Shown: positions 46,018 through 56,282 of the stretch, piece after piece
Layout of the letters: every line of letters starts with the position of its first letter
How positions within the stretch are numbered: position 1 is the first letter of the stretch
Assembly (NCBI GenBank): GCA_016194635.1
Contig: JACQBC010000001.1
Coordinates: forward strand, 124,001-188,000
DNA: 64,000 nucleotides
Direction of reading: 5' to 3'
Origin: Gammaproteobacteria bacterium
GTDB lineage: Bacteria; Pseudomonadota; Gammaproteobacteria; UBA6429; Thiohalophilaceae
Position numbers and translations under genes: made by a program
The notes under the pieces: generated by a model
Database searches by the model: none
What the model saw: only the letters and a program-made list of their open reading frames with translations
Told to the model about the DNA's origin: nothing

Positions 46018-46386
46018 TCAATCCTTCTCATATGCCAGCGCCAGTGTATCGGCCACGGTGCGTAGACGTTTGTCCCGTGTCCAGAGTCGCACCACATCGC
46101 CCAGTGTCGCTGCGGCCAACAAGTGGGCATCGATGTAACCAATACCACGGCCCATCAGTGCGTGCCGCTCGATGAAAAAAAGCATCTCCTCGTCGGTGGC
46201 GACGGCGGCCCGCGGTAAATCCTTGAGTAAGGCCAGTACCTCAACGCGGTTGCGCAAGTTGCCGCAGGCCAGCTCACCGAGTACGAAGGGGTGCATCAAC
46301 ACCAAGCTGCCATTCAGCAGCGCCGCCAGTTCCGCGTCACCGACACGCAGGTGATCGAGCCAGACCGAAGTATCAACCAGGATCAT
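46018..46386 (-). CDS. vapC: VapC-type PIN-domain toxin
   Basis: 122 residues, one PIN domain. All four acidic metal ligands are visible: Asp5 (VDTSVWLDHL), Glu39 (LGELACG), Asp86 (GYIDAHLLAAA) and Asp105 (WTRDKRL). VapC toxins cut specific tRNAs or 23S rRNA and are held inactive by VapB. The start overlaps the antitoxin stop (ATGA), the usual vapBC arrangement. Catalytically complete, so probably functional although it sits inside a decayed operon. Confidence 0.92.
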   Translation of the reverse strand: MILVDTSVWLDHLRVGDAELAALLNGSLVLMHPFVLGELACGNLRNRVEVLALLKDLPRAAVATDEEMLFFIERHALMGRGIGYIDAHLLAAATLGDVVRLWTRDKRLRTVADTLALAYEKD

Positions 46387-46580
46387 GCTGGATTGGACTG
46401 CCGCCGAGCTATCGGCTCCAATTGCGGCTCACTGCCGCCAAGACGCGCCAGCCGCCGGGCACTCTCGCGTTCGATCAACGCACGCAGCCCCTCCCGCACC
46501 AAACTGGCCTTCTCGGACAGGCCGGTAATGCGTTGGGCTTCTTCCAGCAACTGATCATCTATATTCAGCGTCGTGCGCAT
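46383..46580 (-). CDS. vapB: VapB-type antitoxin
   Basis: 65 residues. N-terminal ribbon-helix-helix DNA-binding part (MRTTLNIDDQLLEEAQRITG), then a charged helix and a flexible tail that would wrap the PIN toxin. AGGTG precedes the ATG. A 20-base palindrome at 46602-46621 lies upstream and is the likely operator. First gene of the vapBC pair. Confidence 0.9.
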   Translation of the reverse strand: MRTTLNIDDQLLEEAQRITGLSEKASLVREGLRALIERESARRLARLGGSEPQLEPIARRQSNPA

Positions 46581-46844: not shown

Positions 46845-48608
46845 TTACAGCGTCTCAATGACATTAAGCAAACGCTGAATGTCAGCGTGCGAATTATGTA
46901 GTTCGATAGTATCGGCAATCATCCGATGAATGAATGGTTTCTTAAATGGGGGTTTGTCCATAGCATTCATCGGAACCCCTTTGCTTCCAATCTGTCGCTT
47001 AAGCATATTCAAATCATAGCCGCTACTGTAATCCACACCGTTGTTTGAAACCTCTGTTAATACGCGCGCTGCTGCGGCTTTATTGGTTGTCGCGATCAGA
47101 GCGTACTCAAGGTCCGACGTGAACACAAATACGTTTAACCCAGCGGACTTAAACAGCGTTGTCGCCTCTATAGAAACTTCAGAAAACTCCGCTTCCTCCT
47201 TGTCCAATGCCGCATCGACTTTCGTATGAAATAGTGCTTCACCAGTGAGTACATATCCAGCAGCCTTCGCTCCGACAAGAACTGCTCGCTCCGTGGACTT
47301 CGTCAATGAATCGAAGTCGGTCACAACGAGATGCGGTATGTATGCAGCACTCCAAGCACGAATCATCCTTAGGAATGGGGAGAAGTTCGCATTTCCAGAG
47401 GCGGAAATGATTGAAATTCTATGTGATTGTGCCCCAAACTTTTTCTCAAGTAGAAGCTTAATCACCCGCGCATCTGACTCGCCCTCAACAAAGACCACCT
47501 TGTCTGCAAAAAACAGTAAAGAATTCACATCGTCGCTGTATGCGTCAAAAGTTTTTTGTTCTTTTGCGTCTTTTACTTCTGCTATGTGCAATGCGGAGTG
47601 TTGGCCAACCTTTTTTACCAAGCCAAGACGCGTAAATGGTGTTTCTGCTACGATGTAGGGACTGTGCGTTGTCACGATGACCCTAAGATTGTCCGATTGG
47701 GCGGATCGGATATCCTGATACAATTCTTTCTGCTTTTGCGGATGAAGGAAAGCCTCAGGTTCTTCAACGGCAAGAATAAACTGTATACCAGGATTCTGTG
47801 CAGCTTGCTGCTCAAGACGATGTAGCGCGAGGAGCACGCCACTCTGGACACCGGAACCCGCTTCAGATAGAGCTAGTGTCGTATCCCCGTCGTCAGTCAT
47901 TTGAAATCCCAGCCTCAAGTTGTCCAGAATCCACTCTCCGACGTCCTGGACATCGACGTCGAACTTCAGGGCAAGTTTGTGCTGTGTCTTGAAACCAAAA
48001 TGCTCTTCAATTTGTGGCAGCAATGCTTCATTGATGAACGGTTTGATAGTGCTCGAAATCCTGTCTCTGATGTCCTTCAGGGTACGGTATTCTCTGGGTG
48101 TACCACCTGCAGAATCAGGAATAATCTTAGCGAGGCCATGCACACGAAGCATCTTTGAAAACAGCTCTTGGAAGCGCGGGGAAGTTGCATCACGCAAAGC
48201 AGGGATGAGAACGAACCGGTTGTGATTGCGTAGTTTTTTTAACACGTCTATTGATGCTGAAGTAGTCTTGGCACCCTTTTCGATGGTCTCCAGCACTGTG
48301 AATGTCAAATCTTGGCGCACCGTAATGTGTAGCTGCTTGTCTTTGTCGATATCGGAGTATGTGATGGTAATCCGTCGTGCCTTCGCATTCACATGAAAGA
48401 TCGGCAGCAAGCGCTCTGCCAAGTCTGGGTGTAATGCCCCAAGCTCGATTGCCTTTTCATCCAGTTGGTTTAAGACAATATCAATAACCTTAAGTATCGA
48501 GGATTTGCCGTGATCATTCTGGCCGATGAGAACGGAGGTCTTTTCCAGATCGAATCTGAGTGATTTGAACGATTTGATGTGTGCAAATTCAAAGGATTTT
48601 ATCTTCAT
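46845..48608 (-). CDS. OLD-family ATPase-TOPRIM nuclease
   Basis: 587 residues. ABC/SMC-type ATPase with Walker A GQNDHGKSS at 29-37, a signature-like LSEAGSGVQSG, and Walker B ILAVEEPEAFLHP, then a C-terminal TOPRIM domain with VVFVEGESDARVI (conserved Glu) and VTDFDS (the DxD pair). This is the architecture of OLD nucleases and of GajA of the Gabija defence system. No GajB-like helicase is adjacent, so it is a stand-alone OLD or a partner of the hsd operon. Starts by ATGA overlap with hsdS. It is more A+T-rich than the core genes. Confidence 0.88.
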   Translation of the reverse strand: MKIKSFEFAHIKSFKSLRFDLEKTSVLIGQNDHGKSSILKVIDIVLNQLDEKAIELGALHPDLAERLLPIFHVNAKARRITITYSDIDKDKQLHITVRQDLTFTVLETIEKGAKTTSASIDVLKKLRNHNRFVLIPALRDATSPRFQELFSKMLRVHGLAKIIPDSAGGTPREYRTLKDIRDRISSTIKPFINEALLPQIEEHFGFKTQHKLALKFDVDVQDVGEWILDNLRLGFQMTDDGDTTLALSEAGSGVQSGVLLALHRLEQQAAQNPGIQFILAVEEPEAFLHPQKQKELYQDIRSAQSDNLRVIVTTHSPYIVAETPFTRLGLVKKVGQHSALHIAEVKDAKEQKTFDAYSDDVNSLLFFADKVVFVEGESDARVIKLLLEKKFGAQSHRISIISASGNANFSPFLRMIRAWSAAYIPHLVVTDFDSLTKSTERAVLVGAKAAGYVLTGEALFHTKVDAALDKEEAEFSEVSIEATTLFKSAGLNVFVFTSDLEYALIATTNKAAAARVLTEVSNNGVDYSSGYDLNMLKRQIGSKGVPMNAMDKPPFKKPFIHRMIADTIELHNSHADIQRLLNVIETL

Positions 48609-49825
48609 AATGGAATTCCCCCGTTCATCAGACGCGGCAGGAGCAAGTCGCGGGCTTTGGCAAGTTGTAGATTGCTATCTAGTAACAACTTAATTTGGGT
48701 GTAACTTGAACTTACGTGCTCCTCGAATAACTCAATAAGTTGAGTATTAGGCATCAATACGGTCATAACCTTTAGATGTGCCGGACCGTAATTCAACTGG
48801 GCTGCACCGGTGGCCATAGCTGTTGCCTGATCGATAAAATTTCCATACTTGAGATAGGCCTTCAGAAACCATTTTCTCATTACTCCCTTCGGCCGCATCC
48901 TAATCAAACTCGTGTTCAACATCACGGGTAAATGGCATTTCCGAATTGTAACGACTCGGCCTAGTGTGCCAGAACTCGAAACAACGTGGTCATCCACATC
49001 CAGCAAAAAATGTTGGTACTTGGACGCAACCTCTGTTTCGTCGATGCATTTTGTTTTTGACAAGTCTATTTCGTCATCATTGAAAGTTCGTATGTTGAGG
49101 AATGGAATGCCTTGATCACGATATTGGTGGTTGCGTAGTCCCGGTCCTTCTTTAAAGTCCACCACATCCGGAAATGGCTTCTTCTCCCACCCCTCCGGTA
49201 CGCCGTCTTTGATTTTGACGTGTTCGTGGCCGGGGAAGCGGAGGTGGACGAACCATTCTTTGTAGAGCAGTCGTGCGGCCTGTTCCAGTAACTGTATCCG
49301 CCGCCGGTTGTTTTCGATCAGGTCGTCGTAGGCGGAGAGGATGTTACGAATAGCGTATTGCTCTGTCAGGTCAGGAACAAGCAATGGCCATGTTTCAAGA
49401 ACCCGCGATTCAAGCTTTTTTGTCCCGTGGGAAGCATCAGTGGCAGAATCCCGTATGGCGTGACTTTGCGACTGAAGATAATAAAAAAGAAAACCAGAGT
49501 CGATCTTCGGGGATGGTTGCAGAGCTTTTAAATCTTGATTGAATGTGACCGGCCTTCCCGTCAAGGAAATTCGAAATTCCTTCGCAAGCGACATACCTCG
49601 AACCACCACGAGGACGGTGTTCTCGGGCACAAGTCTTGTCCCGTTTTCTGCGCCCTCTTCCGTCACATGGAGTTCGGTATCGTATATCCGACGTTGCGTC
49701 ATCTCACCAGAGCTGACCCACGGAATCTCACCGTCCCAATACTTAGCTTCGCTCTTGCTAGGCGTTCCACCTGAACGGAACTTCACTTCGTCCCCCATAG
49801 GAACCGTGCGCCATCGAAAACTCAT
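48605..49825 (-). CDS. hsdS: Type I restriction-modification specificity subunit HsdS
   Basis: 406 residues, full length, with two target-recognition domains and two conserved helices. TRD1 begins WRTVPMGDEVKFRSGGTPSKS and TRD2 begins GWEKKPFPDVVDFKEG; each ends in a helical spacer (for example YDDLIENNRRRIQLLEQAARLLYKEWF). It sets the bipartite DNA target of the complex. The start overlaps the stop of a 37-residue hsdM remnant (ATGA), and its stop overlaps the OLD start. The only hsd gene here that looks intact. Confidence 0.93.
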   Translation of the reverse strand: MSFRWRTVPMGDEVKFRSGGTPSKSEAKYWDGEIPWVSSGEMTQRRIYDTELHVTEEGAENGTRLVPENTVLVVVRGMSLAKEFRISLTGRPVTFNQDLKALQPSPKIDSGFLFYYLQSQSHAIRDSATDASHGTKKLESRVLETWPLLVPDLTEQYAIRNILSAYDDLIENNRRRIQLLEQAARLLYKEWFVHLRFPGHEHVKIKDGVPEGWEKKPFPDVVDFKEGPGLRNHQYRDQGIPFLNIRTFNDDEIDLSKTKCIDETEVASKYQHFLLDVDDHVVSSSGTLGRVVTIRKCHLPVMLNTSLIRMRPKGVMRKWFLKAYLKYGNFIDQATAMATGAAQLNYGPAHLKVMTVLMPNTQLIELFEEHVSSSYTQIKLLLDSNLQLAKARDLLLPRLMNGGIPL

Positions 49826-49935
49826 ATCCCCAACTCCTCAAAATTTCTTTTGATCGTCGTTGCCAGCATAACTGCCTCGGCGTTGAGGTCTTGCAGCTCC
49901 ACGTGGATTTCGCGCAGCGACTGTAAACGCCTCAT
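49822..49935 (-). pseudogene. 37-codon frame carrying a duplicated HsdM C-terminus
   Basis: From ATG 49935 it reads a short new leader and then LREIHVELQDLNAEA ... IKRNFEELGI, the same end as the hsdM gene at 51046. The DNA is about 84% identical over 96 bases (49822-49917 against 51046-51141, counted by eye). Its ATG overlaps the stop of the yhcG-like gene and its TGA overlaps the hsdS ATG, so translational coupling is kept through it. It may be translated as a relay peptide. Confidence 0.88.
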
Positions 49936-51049
49936 TTCGCCACCTCGTCCCGCGCCAGTTCCGCTTCGAGTTCCGCAACGCTCGGCAGGCTACCCTGCAA
50001 TTCCTTGGGAAGAACCTTGATGATTTCGGTTTCCCACTCGGCGACACCGATGGGTTTGTTGAACCCGCGCAGCGCGTATTCGGCTTCGAGCTTGTTGTTG
50101 GTGCGGCACAGCAGCAGGCCGATGCACGGCTTGTCGTCCGGGTGGCGCAGTAGGTCATCCACGGCCGAGAGGTACAGGTTCATGGTGCCGACAAAGCCTG
50201 GATCGAACGGCACCGCCTTGAGTTCCACGACCACATAGCAGCGCAGTTTCAGGTGATAAAAAAGCAGGTCGAGGTAGTAGTCGGCACTGGCAAATTCAAG
50301 ATGAACCTGTCGACCGACAAAGGCAAAGCCCGCGCCCAACTCCAGCAGGAAATGCTGGATGTGATCCACCAGCGCCTGTTCGACTTCGCGCTCGCGGCGC
50401 GGATCGGCGGTGCCGAGAAAGTCGAAGAGGTAAGGGTCCTTGAAAATCTGCGCGGCCATGTCGGAATCCGCAGGCGGTAGGGTGGCGTCGAAGTTGGTGA
50501 TGGCTTTGCCGTGGCGTTGGTGCAGATGGTTTGCAATCTGCGTCGCCAAAACGTCACGGCTCCAACCATGCTCAATCGTCTTGCGCGCATACCAGAGGCG
50601 TATCTCAGCATCTTCAGCTTATCGAGCAGCGCCACATTGCTGCGCCAGGGAATTTGTGCAACGGTGCGTTGCACAAATTCGCGGTCCGGCCAGGATTCGG
50701 CAAACTTACGCATATATTTCAGATTGCGCGGCGACAAACCGCTCATGTCTGGATAAGCAGCCCCAAGGTCGGCGGATAATCTGTCGATGACTTTCGCCCC
50801 CCAGCCTTGTTGCTCCTGTCGCGCCAGGATCAAACGCCCGATGTCCCAATACAGCATGACCATTGTCGCATTGGCGGCCATGACCACGCGCAATCGCTCG
50901 GCCTGGATGCGCTGCTTAATCTCCGTGAGCACCGCCGCATAACCGTCGGGCAAATCGGCGTGCGACGGCGTCGCGGGAAACGATGCGTCGCCCCGTTTGC
51001 GGCCACGCGAACCGCGCTCAACGGTGGTGCCGGGGGGCGTTTTTTTCAT
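49932..51049 (-). pseudogene. YhcG/DUF1016 PDDEXK nuclease-like gene with a single-base frameshift
   Basis: Two frames together give one ~370-residue DUF1016 protein. The N-terminal domain (51049 to about 50612) reads YWDIGRLILARQEQQGWGAKVIDRLSADL and YPDMSGLSPRNLKYMRKFAESWPD up to ALLDKLK; the C-terminal nuclease domain continues in another frame as AEIRLWYARKTIEHGW and on through YLDLLFYHLKLRCYVVVELK (the D...ExK-type site) to 49932. One G appears to be missing at about 50611 (KLK-D-AEIRLW expected). The start overlaps the hsdM stop (ATGA). Could also be a sequencing error; otherwise inactive. Confidence 0.88.
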
Positions 51050-51837
51050 ATCCCCAATTCCTCAAAATTCCGTTTGATGGTCGCCGCCAGCGTGACCACC
51101 TCGGCGTTGAGATCTTCCAGTTCGACGTGAATTTCGCGCAGGGTTTCCTCGAAGTCGAAGTCTTCATCGACTTCTTCGGGGGCGACGCCGACATAGCGGC
51201 CGGGGGTGAGGCTCCAGTCGTTGGTTTCGATCTCTTTGATCGTCACCAGTTTGACCAGCCCTTCCACGTCGCGCAGTTTGGCCTCGGGGAAACGTTCGGT
51301 GAGCCAGTGGGCCTGTTTCCAGAAATAGCGCACTTGCTTGAGTTGCTCGACGGCGAAGTGACGCGCTTCATCGGCGGCCTTGCGGGCGCGGGTGATGTCT
51401 TTGCTCACCCAAGCGTCGCTGTCTTTGGCGTTGCATTCTTTTTCGCAGGTGTCGATAAGGCGAGTGGCAAGCTTATAGATAAGATCGGTTTGTTTAATCA
51501 GGTCACGGCTGGCATCACTCATGGGCTCGAACGCTTTGGTGAGTTTGCACAGCGCCGCATTGGTATCCGATGCGGCCTCCCATTGCTTGGTTGCCTGCTG
51601 CGCACGCTTGCGGAACTGTGCGATGTCCTGATCAAACAGTTCGGTCTCATTTTCTAATTCCTTCAGCACGTCGGCCTGTGGTCCGGTTTTGGGCTGGCTG
51701 TGCAGAAACGGTGTTAGTGTGTTGCGCAAGACCTTCAGCGCCTCGGCATAGTCTGGCAATGGCTGTGCGATGTGTTCGAGTTGGGACATTCGGCGCGAGT
51801 TCTCGTTGTTTAGTCGTCTCAGCGTATTTCGCTGCAC
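51046..51837 (-). pseudogene. hsdM: Type I methyltransferase HsdM, C-terminal part only
   Basis: At most 263 residues (GTG 51837; ATG 51789 gives 247). The last ~100 match the HsdM C-terminus: YFWKQAHWLTERFPEAKLRDVEGLVKLV, NDWSLTPGRYVGVAPEE, FDFEETLREIHVELEDLN. The SAM-binding and catalytic NPPF/Y motifs of the N6-adenine methyltransferase domain are missing, and no trace of them is seen upstream. The N-terminal ~150 residues are helical and unrecognised. It can still contact HsdS but cannot methylate. Last gene on the upstream side of the island. Confidence 0.8.
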
Positions 51838-52123: not shown

Positions 52124-52759
52124 TTACTCTTTGCCCATCGCAGCGGGGGCGGGTTGAACACCGGCGGCGGGGGCGGCGTTTTCAGTTTTTGCAGGCGCTT
52201 TGGATATTGCAGCGGCCGCGGCGGCGGAGATTTTAATATTGTCTTCGGAAATAACCTCGCCCGCACCATTCACCACCGAGACTTTGTATTCACCGGCGGT
52301 TTGCGGAATAAAACTCTTGCTGGACCACACGCGCCAACGGTTACTGCCCACGTTAAATTTCATTTCGGCTACGACTTTGCCGTCGTGTTCCCAACGGTGG
52401 GTGGCGGTTTGGCCGTTCATGTCGCGCAGTTCAGTGAAATAATAAACCTTGGAGTTATCGGTATTTTGCAGTTTATCGGTGGGCTCACGGTCTTTAATCT
52501 CGCTGGTGAAGATCGAGCGCACCACGCTCCCTTTTGAAAAACCCGACTGCTCGGCCACATCCTGTTTTGCCCCCGTGGTGGCAGTACTCGTGGCCTTTGG
52601 AGTCGTGGTTGCCTCGGCGGGAGCAGTTTGGGTTTGAGAATGGGTCTGTTGCGCCGCGGCCGGCGCGGCGGGGGTTTGTGCCGACGTAGTGCCGGTGGTT
52701 TCAGCCACGGCGATAACCGGGCCTAGGGTTGCGGCGAAAATAATATGGCTTAATTTCAT
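52124..52759 (-). CDS. Secreted DUF2914 domain protein
   Basis: 211 residues. Signal peptide (about 1-19, ending AVA-ET), a Thr/Ala/Pro-rich linker (20-72), then a DUF2914 domain (about 78-175: VVRSIFTSEIKDREP, YYFTELRDMNGQTATHRWEHDGK, WRVWSSKSFIP, GEYKVSVVNGAGEVI) and an Ala/Pro-rich tail. The beta-rich domain is found in gammaproteobacterial envelope proteins of unknown role. It has its own terminator and stands alone. Confidence 0.87.
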   Translation of the reverse strand: MKLSHIIFAATLGPVIAVAETTGTTSAQTPAAPAAAQQTHSQTQTAPAEATTTPKATSTATTGAKQDVAEQSGFSKGSVVRSIFTSEIKDREPTDKLQNTDNSKVYYFTELRDMNGQTATHRWEHDGKVVAEMKFNVGSNRWRVWSSKSFIPQTAGEYKVSVVNGAGEVISEDNIKISAAAAAAISKAPAKTENAAPAAGVQPAPAAMGKE

Positions 52760-52894: not shown

Positions 52895-53350
52895 TTATAG
52901 CACCAGCCGCGCCTTGATAAGCCCATAAAAAGAGCGGGCTTGAGGTTGACTAAAATACCAACCCAAGTGAATCCCGCATTGCAGGCAAGTGGCGAGCTGC
53001 CAGCTATAACCGCTAAACCACGTGTGCTGCAACGTAGGCTCTCCTGAGATCAGACCCCGCGCCTCGTGAAATAACACAATGGCGAACCTCATCCCCGCCG
53101 GGTTAGTCACGACATGGTGGTGCTGCCCCGCCATGTCGATGGCCTGACTGGGTCGTGTAATAACGCTACGGCAGTGCAGGCAGCGAATGACCTCGGCAGT
53201 TTCGGTTGGCTGGGGTATTGGGACGGTCAGACTGGCGGTTTTATCAAAATAAAATCGCGGCGGTAATAATTTATCCAGCCATAGCGGTAAGAATACAATC
53301 ATCGTGTGATCCTGGTAGGGCGCGTAAGGTCGACACTGCCACACTTCCAT
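52895..53350 (-). CDS. Bacterial cereblon-type (CULT) domain protein
   Basis: 151 residues. Residues ~52-151 match the thalidomide-binding CULT domain of cereblon and MsCI4. Zinc cysteines are C57-x2-C60 and C122-x2-C125. The three cage tryptophans are W111, W117 and W131, with the same +6 and +14 spacing as human W380, W386, W400; F133 corresponds to F402 and His109 to H378. HTWFSGYSW and HLGWYF are nearly the eukaryotic segments. The domain binds cyclic imides and uridine-like ligands in its aromatic cage; cellular role in bacteria is unknown. Divergent from hemH. Confidence 0.9.
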   Translation of the reverse strand: MEVWQCRPYAPYQDHTMIVFLPLWLDKLLPPRFYFDKTASLTVPIPQPTETAEVIRCLHCRSVITRPSQAIDMAGQHHHVVTNPAGMRFAIVLFHEARGLISGEPTLQHTWFSGYSWQLATCLQCGIHLGWYFSQPQARSFYGLIKARLVL

Positions 53351-53397: not shown

Positions 53398-54411
53398 ATG
53401 ACGCGCTACCCTGCCACTACTCCAGCCACCGATACTGCTCCCATAACCGGCGTCCTGTTAGTCAACTTGGGGACGCCCGATGCCCCGACACCTGCCGCGG
53501 TACGGCGTTACCTGGCGGAGTTTTTATGGGATCCGCGGGTGGTGGAAAGCCCACGCTGGTTTTGGTGGTTGGTACTGCACGGCTTCATCTTACGCTACCG
53601 GCCGCCGCGGGTAGCTAAAGTCTATCAAAGTATCTGGGGTCGGCAAGGCTCGCCCCTTTTGACCCATAGCCTGTCCCTGGCTAAGGCCGTGGCGGCCTCG
53701 GTGCCGGCGAATGTGGTGGTACGTTGCGCGATGAATTACGGCAATCCCAGTATTGCCTCGGTATTGGCGGAATTAAACCAGCACAATCTGCAACGCTTGT
53801 TGGTGCTACCGCTTTACCCGCAGTATTCCGCCACCACCTCGGCGGCGGTATTTGATGCGGTAACGCGCGAACTTCGCCGTTGGCGCAAACTCCCCGATCT
53901 GCGTTTTTGTCTTCACTACTATAACCATCCCCAGTATATTGATGTCTTGGCCGGGCAAATTCGCCACAGTTTCCAAACCCAGGGCCGGCCGCAAAAGTTA
54001 CTGTTTTCGTTTCATGGGATCCCGCAGCGCTATTGCAAAGCGGGCGATCCCTATGAACAGCAGTGTTACGCCACCGCCGCGCAAGTGGCTGCCCGCTTAG
54101 AATTAGGCCAAGAGCAATGGCAATTAACCTTTCAGTCGCGTTTTGGACGCGAACCTTGGTTAGAGCCCTTTACCGATCGCACGCTTAAAGCGTTCCCTGG
54201 ACAGGGTATTACCCGGGTGCAAATTATTGCCCCGGGATTTGCCGTGGATTGTTTAGAAACCCTGGAAGAGTTGGCTATCCAAAACAGAGAGTTTTTTACC
54301 CACGCGGGCGGACAAACGTTTCACTACATTCCGGCATTAAATGACAGCGCGGCGCATGTCGCGCTTATCCGCCAGTTAATCGATGAACAAACCGCGGGTT
54401 GGCACGGATAA
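53398..54411 (+). CDS. hemH: Ferrochelatase
   Basis: 337 residues. Inserts Fe2+ into protoporphyrin IX, the last step of haem synthesis. The opening GVLLVNLGTPDAPTP, the metal-site histidine in LLFSFHGIPQRY, and the glutamate segment PGFAVDCLETLEELA are all present. Peripheral membrane enzyme without a transmembrane segment. A haem-dependent sulfur oxidiser would need it, but the neighbours are not haem genes. Confidence 0.96.
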   Translation: MTRYPATTPATDTAPITGVLLVNLGTPDAPTPAAVRRYLAEFLWDPRVVESPRWFWWLVLHGFILRYRPPRVAKVYQSIWGRQGSPLLTHSLSLAKAVAASVPANVVVRCAMNYGNPSIASVLAELNQHNLQRLLVLPLYPQYSATTSAAVFDAVTRELRRWRKLPDLRFCLHYYNHPQYIDVLAGQIRHSFQTQGRPQKLLFSFHGIPQRYCKAGDPYEQQCYATAAQVAARLELGQEQWQLTFQSRFGREPWLEPFTDRTLKAFPGQGITRVQIIAPGFAVDCLETLEELAIQNREFFTHAGGQTFHYIPALNDSAAHVALIRQLIDEQTAGWHG

Positions 54412-54455: not shown

Positions 54456-56282
54456 TTAGCCCAACTCCCCTTTGTAATCGGCGATACCGGCATTGCCTTG
54501 GGCACCGATAATTTTCGGCGTATTAAATTTCTTGATCTTCGCCACTTTCACGTCGCGCAAATATTTAGCCACCGTGTCCCAAACCGGCTCACCGGGGGAT
54601 TGGCTACCCACCGTGGCCCAGCCCGCGACTTTATAGCTCTTCTTGGCGTCAATCGGGGTGCCGTTATCCAAGCGCATATCCTTGATCCGATTACCGATGC
54701 TGGCATTGAGGTCGATGGTGTAATCCATGCCGCCGAGCCGGACCATGTCGCCACCCTGTTGTTTATAAGGATCGGTATTGAATAAATTGTCCGCCACGTC
54801 TTCAAGCACGATCTTAATATCGTCACCGCTCATGTCACGCACATAGGTTTCGGGATAGGTCGTAGCGGTTTGATCCATGACGTGATCCATGGTCACCGTC
54901 TGACCTGGCAATACGGTGGTTCCCCAGCGAAAGCCCGGCGACAAGGAGATTTGCGCTTGGTTTACCGCGCGCAAGGCATCACAAATCACCTGGTCAAAGG
55001 TACCGTTGAAATTGCCACGGCGGTATAACGAGACACCCTCGGGATCGGCAATCGCCAATTGTTCGGTTAACTTGGCTTCATAGGGCTTGCGAATATCCGC
55101 GATATACCCTTGCATTTCCTTGTCCGGCTCTAACAAATTGGAGAATACCGGCAACAAGCGATAACGGAAATCCTGTAACTTGCCGTTACGCACATCCAGC
55201 TGCATAAACCCTAAGAACTTACCGTTGGAACCCGCGTTGGTTACCAAGGTTTGCCCGGTTTTATTCTTGATAACCGTGGGCGCGGGGACACCATCGTGGG
55301 TATGACCGCCGAAGATCACATCGATACCGGAGACTAGTTCCGCCATCTTTAAATCCACATCCATGCCGTTATGCGAGATCACCACCACGATATCGGCTTT
55401 TTCCTTATTACGCACCTCGTCGACCGTGCGTTGCATGTCTTGATCGTGGATACCGAAGGTCCAATGGGGAATAAAGCGTTGTGGATTGGCGATAGGGGTA
55501 TACGGGAAGGCTTGTCCGATCACGGCGACCCGCACCTCACCGACTTGTTTAATGCTATAGGGCTTAAAGGCGCGTTGGGTGCTTTCATTAAAGCCGGCAA
55601 AATCCGCGAAGGGATACCCGGTGAGGATCGATTCGTCATTCACAAACACGTTTTGACAAACAAAATCGCCTTTGAAGTTTTTGACGTTTTCAATCACTTC
55701 TTTATCTTGATAGGTAAATTCCCAATGGCCGGTCATTACATCCACGCCTAATAGATTACAGGCCCCGACCATGTCCTTACCACGGGTCCAATAGGCCGTG
55801 CCCGATCCTTGCCAGGTATCACCGCCATCCATTAACAGGGTTTTATTGACGCCGTGTTCGCTGCGTAATTTTTTAATCAGGGTACGCAGATGGGCAAAAC
55901 CACCGACCTTGCCAAAGGTCTTAGCCGCTTCCTCGAAATTCAAATACGTAAAGGCATGGGCCTCGATACTCCCCGGATGGATACCGAAGTGTTTGAGAAA
56001 TTTATCCCCTACCAAGTGGGGCGAAACCCCCGACATCGTGGCCAGCCCCACATTAACATTGGGCTCGCGAAAATAAATCGGCAGCAACTGCGCATGGGAG
56101 TCGGTGAAGTGAATTAAGGACACATTACCAAAGGGGGCGATGTTATAAAGTTCTTCGGGTTTACGCGCCACCGCCGAGGCCGGTGCGGCACCACTCTTGC
56201 CGGACTTATTACATCCGGGAACCAGACCGGCGGCGGCGGCCAGGCCCATCATTTGAATAAATTCTCGACGGCTAAGAGACAT
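54456..56282 (-). CDS. soxB: Thiosulfohydrolase SoxB
   Basis: 608 residues with a Tat signal (SRREFIQMMGLAAAAG) and a possible lipobox (LVPGC). Metallophosphatase-fold enzyme with two Mn ions that releases sulfate from the thiosulfonate bound to SoxY. Metal ligands are seen in LIHFTDSHAQL, DGGDTWQGSG, VVISHNGMD and GGHTHDG, and the SoxB-specific SPGFRWG segment is present. soxXA, soxYZ and soxCD are not adjacent, so this is an isolated soxB, as in several sulfur-oxidising gammaproteobacteria. Confidence 0.95.
   Translation of the reverse strand: MSLSRREFIQMMGLAAAAGLVPGCNKSGKSGAAPASAVARKPEELYNIAPFGNVSLIHFTDSHAQLLPIYFREPNVNVGLATMSGVSPHLVGDKFLKHFGIHPGSIEAHAFTYLNFEEAAKTFGKVGGFAHLRTLIKKLRSEHGVNKTLLMDGGDTWQGSGTAYWTRGKDMVGACNLLGVDVMTGHWEFTYQDKEVIENVKNFKGDFVCQNVFVNDESILTGYPFADFAGFNESTQRAFKPYSIKQVGEVRVAVIGQAFPYTPIANPQRFIPHWTFGIHDQDMQRTVDEVRNKEKADIVVVISHNGMDVDLKMAELVSGIDVIFGGHTHDGVPAPTVIKNKTGQTLVTNAGSNGKFLGFMQLDVRNGKLQDFRYRLLPVFSNLLEPDKEMQGYIADIRKPYEAKLTEQLAIADPEGVSLYRRGNFNGTFDQVICDALRAVNQAQISLSPGFRWGTTVLPGQTVTMDHVMDQTATTYPETYVRDMSGDDIKIVLEDVADNLFNTDPYKQQGGDMVRLGGMDYTIDLNASIGNRIKDMRLDNGTPIDAKKSYKVAGWATVGSQSPGEPVWDTVAKYLRDVKVAKIKKFNTPKIIGAQGNAGIADYKGELG

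Follow-up and report, generated by a model that had tools for sequence, protein, structure and literature searches.

The window, a stretch of 64,000 nucleotides of contig JACQBC010000001.1 from a gammaproteobacterium, encodes on its minus strand a predicted protein (the window protein, residues counted from its Met1) that by sequence and modeled fold is a CULT domain of the single-domain bacterial group. It is an ordinary further member of a published family; the bacterial CULT family was described in 2015 (Lupas et al. 2015, PMC4287342). The relevant features are as follows.

52895–53350, minus strand: longest open reading frame, ATG start, 151 aa (open reading frame listing)
52895–53302, minus strand: most likely true extent of the CULT-domain protein, Met17 start, 135 aa
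52895–53182, minus strand: CULT domain proper, residues 57–151 and the stop, with zinc cysteines, cage residues and H109
53183–53302, minus strand: N-terminal tail, residues 17–56, 40 residues with a hydrophobic start and an FYFD stretch
52124–52759, minus strand: DUF2914 protein (PF11141, E-value = 1.9e-15), first gene downstream in the same orientation, at a distance of 135 bp
53398–54411, plus strand: hemH, ferrochelatase (TIGR00109, 310.4 bits; PF00762, 371.2 bits), divergent from the CULT gene
54456–56282, minus strand: soxB, thiosulfohydrolase (TIGR04486, 844.8 bits), within the same conserved block

The 151 aa frame, named in a first-pass annotation of this DNA, is confirmed on the minus strand with its ATG. 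The true start is probably Met17 at position 53302. This Met is preferred because AGGA is found 7 nt upstream of its ATG and because one candidate Met of the same-genus orthologue, in whose frame other starts are possible as well, aligns with it. At Met1 an AGG directly abuts the ATG. With the Met17 start the N-terminal tail would therefore consist of 40 rather than 56 residues, and the gap to hemH would be 95 bp.

The first-pass annotation had described zinc cysteines, three cage tryptophans at +6 and +14 spacing, a following Phe and an HxW histidine, and all of these are found. The cysteines form two CxxC motifs (C57-x-x-C60 and C122-x-x-C125), the tryptophans are W111, W117 and W131, the Phe is F133, and the histidine belongs to H109-T-W111. 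The assignment to CULT, with its zinc site, cage and cereblon-like pocket, is supported by the sequence, by family alignments and by the predicted fold. A phmmer search of PDB sequences gave Magnetospirillum MsCI4 as the best solved relative (E-value = 6.5e-26), with W111, W117, W131 and F133 collinear in the alignment, and entries named 'Protein cereblon' rank next (E-values 6.2e-11 to 8.5e-9), matches well beyond what chance would give. A relative is present in a second species of the genus (E-value = 7.1e-33, genome search). The Pfam family Yippee-Mis18 (PF03226), which belongs to the same zinc beta-tent superfamily, matches with an E-value of 2.3e-5 and 24.9 bits, under the curated cut-off of 26.6, and in the 3.7 Mb genome the window protein is its only match at E ≤ 0.001. 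Since Pfam otherwise finds just a weak zf-BED match (E-value = 0.038), the window protein appears to be a CULT domain alone. Pfam shows no LON domain in it, the two LON matches of the genome being on other contigs; NCBIfam shows no match at E ≤ 1, and the PADLOC anti-phage models give 0 families at E ≤ 0.001.

The AlphaFold model, built with 72 sequences, has a mean pLDDT of 85.6, and ten-residue blocks from residue 51 onward average 93–98. The first-pass annotation had proposed superposition on cereblon or MsCI4. The model has a predicted beta-tent fold and superposes on MsCI4 with Z = 19.8 and 0.9–1.0 Å over 99 residues, and on the cereblon thalidomide-binding domain 9odr with Z = 18.7 and 1.1 Å over 100 residues (VIA-align). 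The match to 9nr3, a CRBN-DDB1 complex with the cyclic imide GLUL-cN, gives Z = 18.0 and 1.4 Å by the same program. Foldseek agrees; the deoxyuridine complex 4v31 comes first, with other MsCI4 entries at a nearly equal E-value.

MsCI4 (MGR_0879, 'cereblon isoform 4' of Magnetospirillum gryphiswaldense; PDB 4v2y, 4v32 and others) is likewise a single CULT domain with zinc cysteines and a cage of three tryptophans, and shares 39–43% identity with the window protein over 99 residues. It differs in having Phe and Tyr at the positions of H109 and F133 (phmmer alignment) and in its shorter N-terminal tail. The CULT domain of cereblon, the human target of thalidomide, shares the cage of three Trp and one Phe as well as the HxW histidine; the identity is 27%, and the window protein has neither the LON domain nor the DDB1-binding part. 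Human cereblon presumably carries His at the position of H109. A Phe at the position of F133 is implied by PMC8900816. With H109 and F133, the cage of the window protein would be nearer to that of human cereblon than the cage of MsCI4 is at these two positions.

Residue conservation was followed in two sets. The unfiltered set, assembled with no motif requirement, has 13 rows: the window protein and 12 homologues. The copy in genome G031, cut by a contig end, is left out of it. The wider set has 72 aligned proteins, for which the search patterns partly required W111-W117 or C122-W131. Invariant in 72/72 are C57, C60, N83, P84, W111, F112, G114, W117, C122, C125, G130, W131 and F141, and all except G114 are also invariant in the 13 rows of the unfiltered set. 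His is found at position 109 in 19 of the 72 aligned proteins and Phe at 133 in 43. Cysteines common among the bacterial proteins at positions 93 (67/72) and 100 (57/72) are absent from the window protein, a difference from other members.

The domain diverges rapidly around these positions. In pairwise comparisons among 11 family genomes, CULT identity is below HemH identity in 55/55 pairs, which are not independent and include pieces clipped by contig ends. Within the genus the percentages are 46 for CULT and 69 for HemH; for the pair G020 and G032 they are 62 and 85, with DUF2914 at 96. The residues that stay fixed despite this divergence belong mainly to the zinc site and the pocket. A faster divergence of CULT than of HemH would be expected if it is chiefly the pocket that is under constraint.

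In cereblon, an extension docks on the pocket. The N-terminal extension of the window protein had been offered as a clue to its role, and this expectation did not hold: the tail is of low confidence and shows no robust motif. Blocks over residues 1–50 have mean pLDDT values of 53–70 (53, 69, 62 and 70 for residues 11–50). A hydrophobic-F-D motif was a candidate. A first EM run (88 sequences, width 7) gave a log-likelihood of 165 against 92.5–107.5 in 6 shuffles, with 25 restarts on the real data and 10 on the shuffles. In a stricter run with equal restarts, width 6 and tighter removal of relatives, leaving 35 sequences, the value was 84.7 against 70.5–83.0 in 12 shuffles and 78.2–89.0 in 8 sets of neighbour N-termini. 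The signal is not robust, and no motif is claimed.

The CULT gene has a patchy distribution. It is found in 11 of 37 genomes of the same GTDB family and, counting the genome of the window, in 14 of 58 relatives and 28 of 369 genomes of the class. A pattern scan of GTDB showed 415 stretches that encode a relative, and the number of genes may be smaller since two patterns were used. By their titles, the best 80 loci from the 415 matched stretches, mostly metagenome bins, include Desulfobacterota groups, Nitrospirae, Spirochaetes, Aminicenantes, Thermoanaerobaculia, Magnetococcales and alpha-, beta- and gammaproteobacteria, a wider list than that in the available text of Lupas et al. 2015 (PMC4287342). 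None of 35 pattern matches on viral contigs is a relative, and 50,697 phage and 72,556 plasmid records show no match at E ≤ 0.001. A tree of 72 domains, built on few columns and with 41 of its 69 inner branches open, shows the phyla intermixed: the 7 groups need 17 changes, against a minimum of 6 and a mean of 30.2 after shuffling. Paralogy or binning errors could explain the mixing; therefore horizontal transfer is not claimed.

Neighbouring genes were clustered by BLAST with up to eight open reading frames on each side in 96 loci, a procedure that missed one of 97 CULT open reading frames (L038). Clusters found in at least 4 loci and spanning phyla are generic by eye and lie at scattered positions, e.g. 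an ABC ATPase in 13 loci and a kinase/response-regulator type in 10. Clusters of at least 4 loci at a fixed position are lineage-bound. Contexts outside the family of the window genome are lineage-bound: TauE (by Pfam), Slt and cca (both by eye) are found near CULT in other gammaproteobacteria, and RmuC and response regulators, named by eye, in Desulfobacterales. Same-strand neighbours within 250 bp form 72 distinct clusters, of which the 60 longest were searched with Pfam and the 12 shortest were left out. No family occurs in more than 4 of the 60, the commonest being generic AAA and GTPase domains (among the 25 listed of 98 families). Thus no specific partner gene recurring across phyla was found in the 96 loci and 60 Pfam-scanned neighbours. 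In three gammaproteobacterial loci (L061, L079 and L094) a DUF427-like gene, recognized by eye, lies two to three open reading frames downstream of CULT; Lupas et al. 2015 (PMC4287342) count DUF427 among the beta-tent folds as well. Loci L001–L127 contain 20 frames of at least 200 aa (up to 469 aa) whose upstream parts resemble non-coding read-through by eye. No convincing CULT fusion was seen in these loci, and no frame extends more than 70 residues beyond the second CxxC.

The hemH gene lies divergent from CULT, as the first-pass annotation had noted, and it does so in all 11 CULT-positive genomes of the GTDB family. DUF2914, whose product has an N-terminus resembling a signal peptide by eye, adjoins CULT in 10 of these 11 (in G031 the contig ends) and in G050 from another family. 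Thirty DUF2914-centred loci were examined, with pieces from 18 of the 26 CULT-negative family genomes. In 10 of the 26, hemH lies beside DUF2914 with 240–887 bp between the match edges, and neither CULT nor a remnant of it is found there at E ≤ 10. In 8 others the DUF2914 piece carries no hemH; four of these pieces are clipped, whereas the other four have complete flanks of 1.5 kb, which shows that the block is not conserved throughout the family. In part of the family, then, the block occurs independently of CULT, which either resides in it or has been lost from it. Because ten CULT-negative genomes keep hemH and DUF2914 together, hemH looks like a positional neighbour. The divergent orientation stands, whereas its value as a clue to role does not; conservation of the hemH neighbourhood in relatives had been proposed as a check.

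Coupling of CULT to ferrochelatase through a shared divergent promoter region, and hence a heme-linked role, is very improbable. It would agree with the constant divergence in the family, with hemH lying convergent at 83 to 4876 bp in 5 more gammaproteobacterial loci (L049, L061, L064, L094 and L109), and with HemD as one of the 60 neighbour clusters elsewhere. Against it are the CULT-free blocks of the family and the three CULT-positive relatives of other families (G037, G047 and G050), which show no hemH in pieces of 11–16 kb. A 2-hydroxyacid dehydrogenase gene (PF02826 in the G006 copy) also intervenes between CULT and hemH in 5 of the 11 family genomes. In these five (G005, G006, G017, G020 and G032; loci L130, L140, L134, L137 and L133) the dehydrogenase gene ends a few bases from the listed CULT start, a spacing that suggests co-transcription or translational coupling there.

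Two other loci were seen in the window. At 46845–51837 on the minus strand there is a defence-like cluster with an OLD/GajA-type ATPase, a type I specificity subunit, a PDC-S02 protein whose coding sequence is spread over two frames (49932–50549 and 50249–51049) and the C-terminal part of a type I methyltransferase (51046–51837); by eye the cluster resembles a type I restriction locus in decay. At 46018–46580, also on the minus strand, two small overlapping open reading frames resemble by eye a VapBC-type toxin-antitoxin pair, with a PIN-like protein and a short antitoxin.

Cereblon fuses LON and CULT (PMC4287342), and in the genome a stand-alone LON-domain protein (G000:C2:34158-34739, about 194 aa) occurs alongside a LON domain in an 811 aa frame, presumably Lon protease. 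These observations speak for a split cereblon, in which CULT and the stand-alone LON-domain protein would form a substrate receptor for Lon or another protease. Against it, nearly every genome of the family encodes the LON-only protein whether or not it has CULT (9 of the 11 with CULT, 25 of the 26 lacking it), and genome G008 (98% complete) has CULT and lacks this protein. In addition, no convincing fusion was seen, and LON is missing from the 25 commonest neighbour families listed of 98. Such a receptor is hardly probable. A PIMT gene over the family cut-off is present in 51 of 58 relatives, including the genome of the window: 13 of the 14 relatives with CULT and 38 of the 44 without it. Since most genomes have it whether or not they carry CULT, PIMT does not follow the CULT gene and is uninformative. 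Co-occurrence with LON and PIMT genes neither supports nor excludes a functional link to CULT.

The native ligand and role had been called open in the first-pass annotation, and Lupas et al. 2015 (PMC4287342) and Hartmann et al. 2015 (PMC4449219) state the same. Searches of the CC-licensed PMC library listed structure, drug and chemistry papers; judged by title and start of abstract, none of those listed gives a role, substrate, phenotype or partner for a bacterial CULT protein. MsCI4 binds thalidomide and uridine, the latter at low-micromolar levels, and a third of the protein folds upon ligand binding; its authors gave no biological context for uridine in the available text (PMC4449219). Human cereblon recognizes cyclic imides at protein C-termini, and PCMT1 is able to generate these (PMC11974815, PMC13001092).

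The reading favoured here, held tentatively, is that the window protein may be a free-standing reader of cyclic imides, probably on damaged protein C-termini. It would act without a ubiquitin ligase; bacteria are not known to have a cullin ubiquitin ligase. A zinc-pinned beta-tent with an aromatic cage of three Trp and one Phe would close round a cyclic imide, the caged ring being a glutarimide, a succinimide or uracil-like. The likeliest native ligand would be a C-terminal cyclic imide arising from cyclization of a terminal Asn or Gln or from a chain break there, since the pocket is homologous to those of cereblon and MsCI4. We infer that the window protein may bind imide ends in vivo; that as a free reader it would cap, sequester or hand over damaged chains is a guess. 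Counted in favour of the imide reader are MsCI4 as closest solved relative, the fold match, the invariant zinc and cage residues, the lower identity of CULT than of HemH in every pair, the wide presence of PIMT, and the ligands published for MsCI4 and human cereblon. Counted against it are the lack of a bacterial substrate, phenotype or partner among the papers listed, the lack of a specific neighbour family across phyla in the loci surveyed and the failure of PIMT to track CULT. The patchiness of the gene would also be odd for a general repair function, and since the corresponding pocket of MsCI4 also takes uridine, a pocket of this kind is not enough to identify the ligand.

This last point leads to a sensor or buffer of small molecules (free uracil or uridine, dihydrouracil, hydantoin or another cyclic amide), with folding upon binding as a switch that would signal to a partner. 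The uridine binding and ligand-induced folding of MsCI4 (PMC4449219) are consistent with this, as is the first rank of the deoxyuridine complex in Foldseek, where other MsCI4 entries score nearly the same. No pyrimidine or hydantoin family is seen, however, among the 25 commonest neighbour families listed of the 98 matched, and a sensor appears unlikely. Patchy presence, absence from sister genomes and fast divergence would also suit an accessory binder that the cell can largely do without, maintained through drift and transfer and with no single defined ligand in the lineage. Zinc and cage residues that stay invariant through the divergence are unlike drift, and such a binder is improbable. 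An extension of the imide reader is a speculation of similarly low probability: a ubiquitin-free bacterial quality control of C-terminal cyclic imides, in which a lone CULT protein recognizes imide-capped termini and passes them to a protease encoded elsewhere, whether or not the stand-alone LON protein takes part, eukaryotic cereblon then being a fusion of these parts.

For the bacterial CULT family, the survey limits what the role can be: no specific partner gene across phyla, no convincing fusion and no phage or plasmid copy appeared in the searched records, neighbourhoods are lineage-bound, and the domain diverges fast around fixed zinc and cage residues. An adaptor with a conserved docking surface fits these limits less well than a reader that stands alone and recognizes a small moiety, and hemH is weakened as a guide to CULT function. 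Bacterial CULT proteins serve as a crystallographic stand-in for human cereblon (PMC8900816). With His and Phe where MsCI4 differs, the window protein may be a closer natural model of the human pocket.
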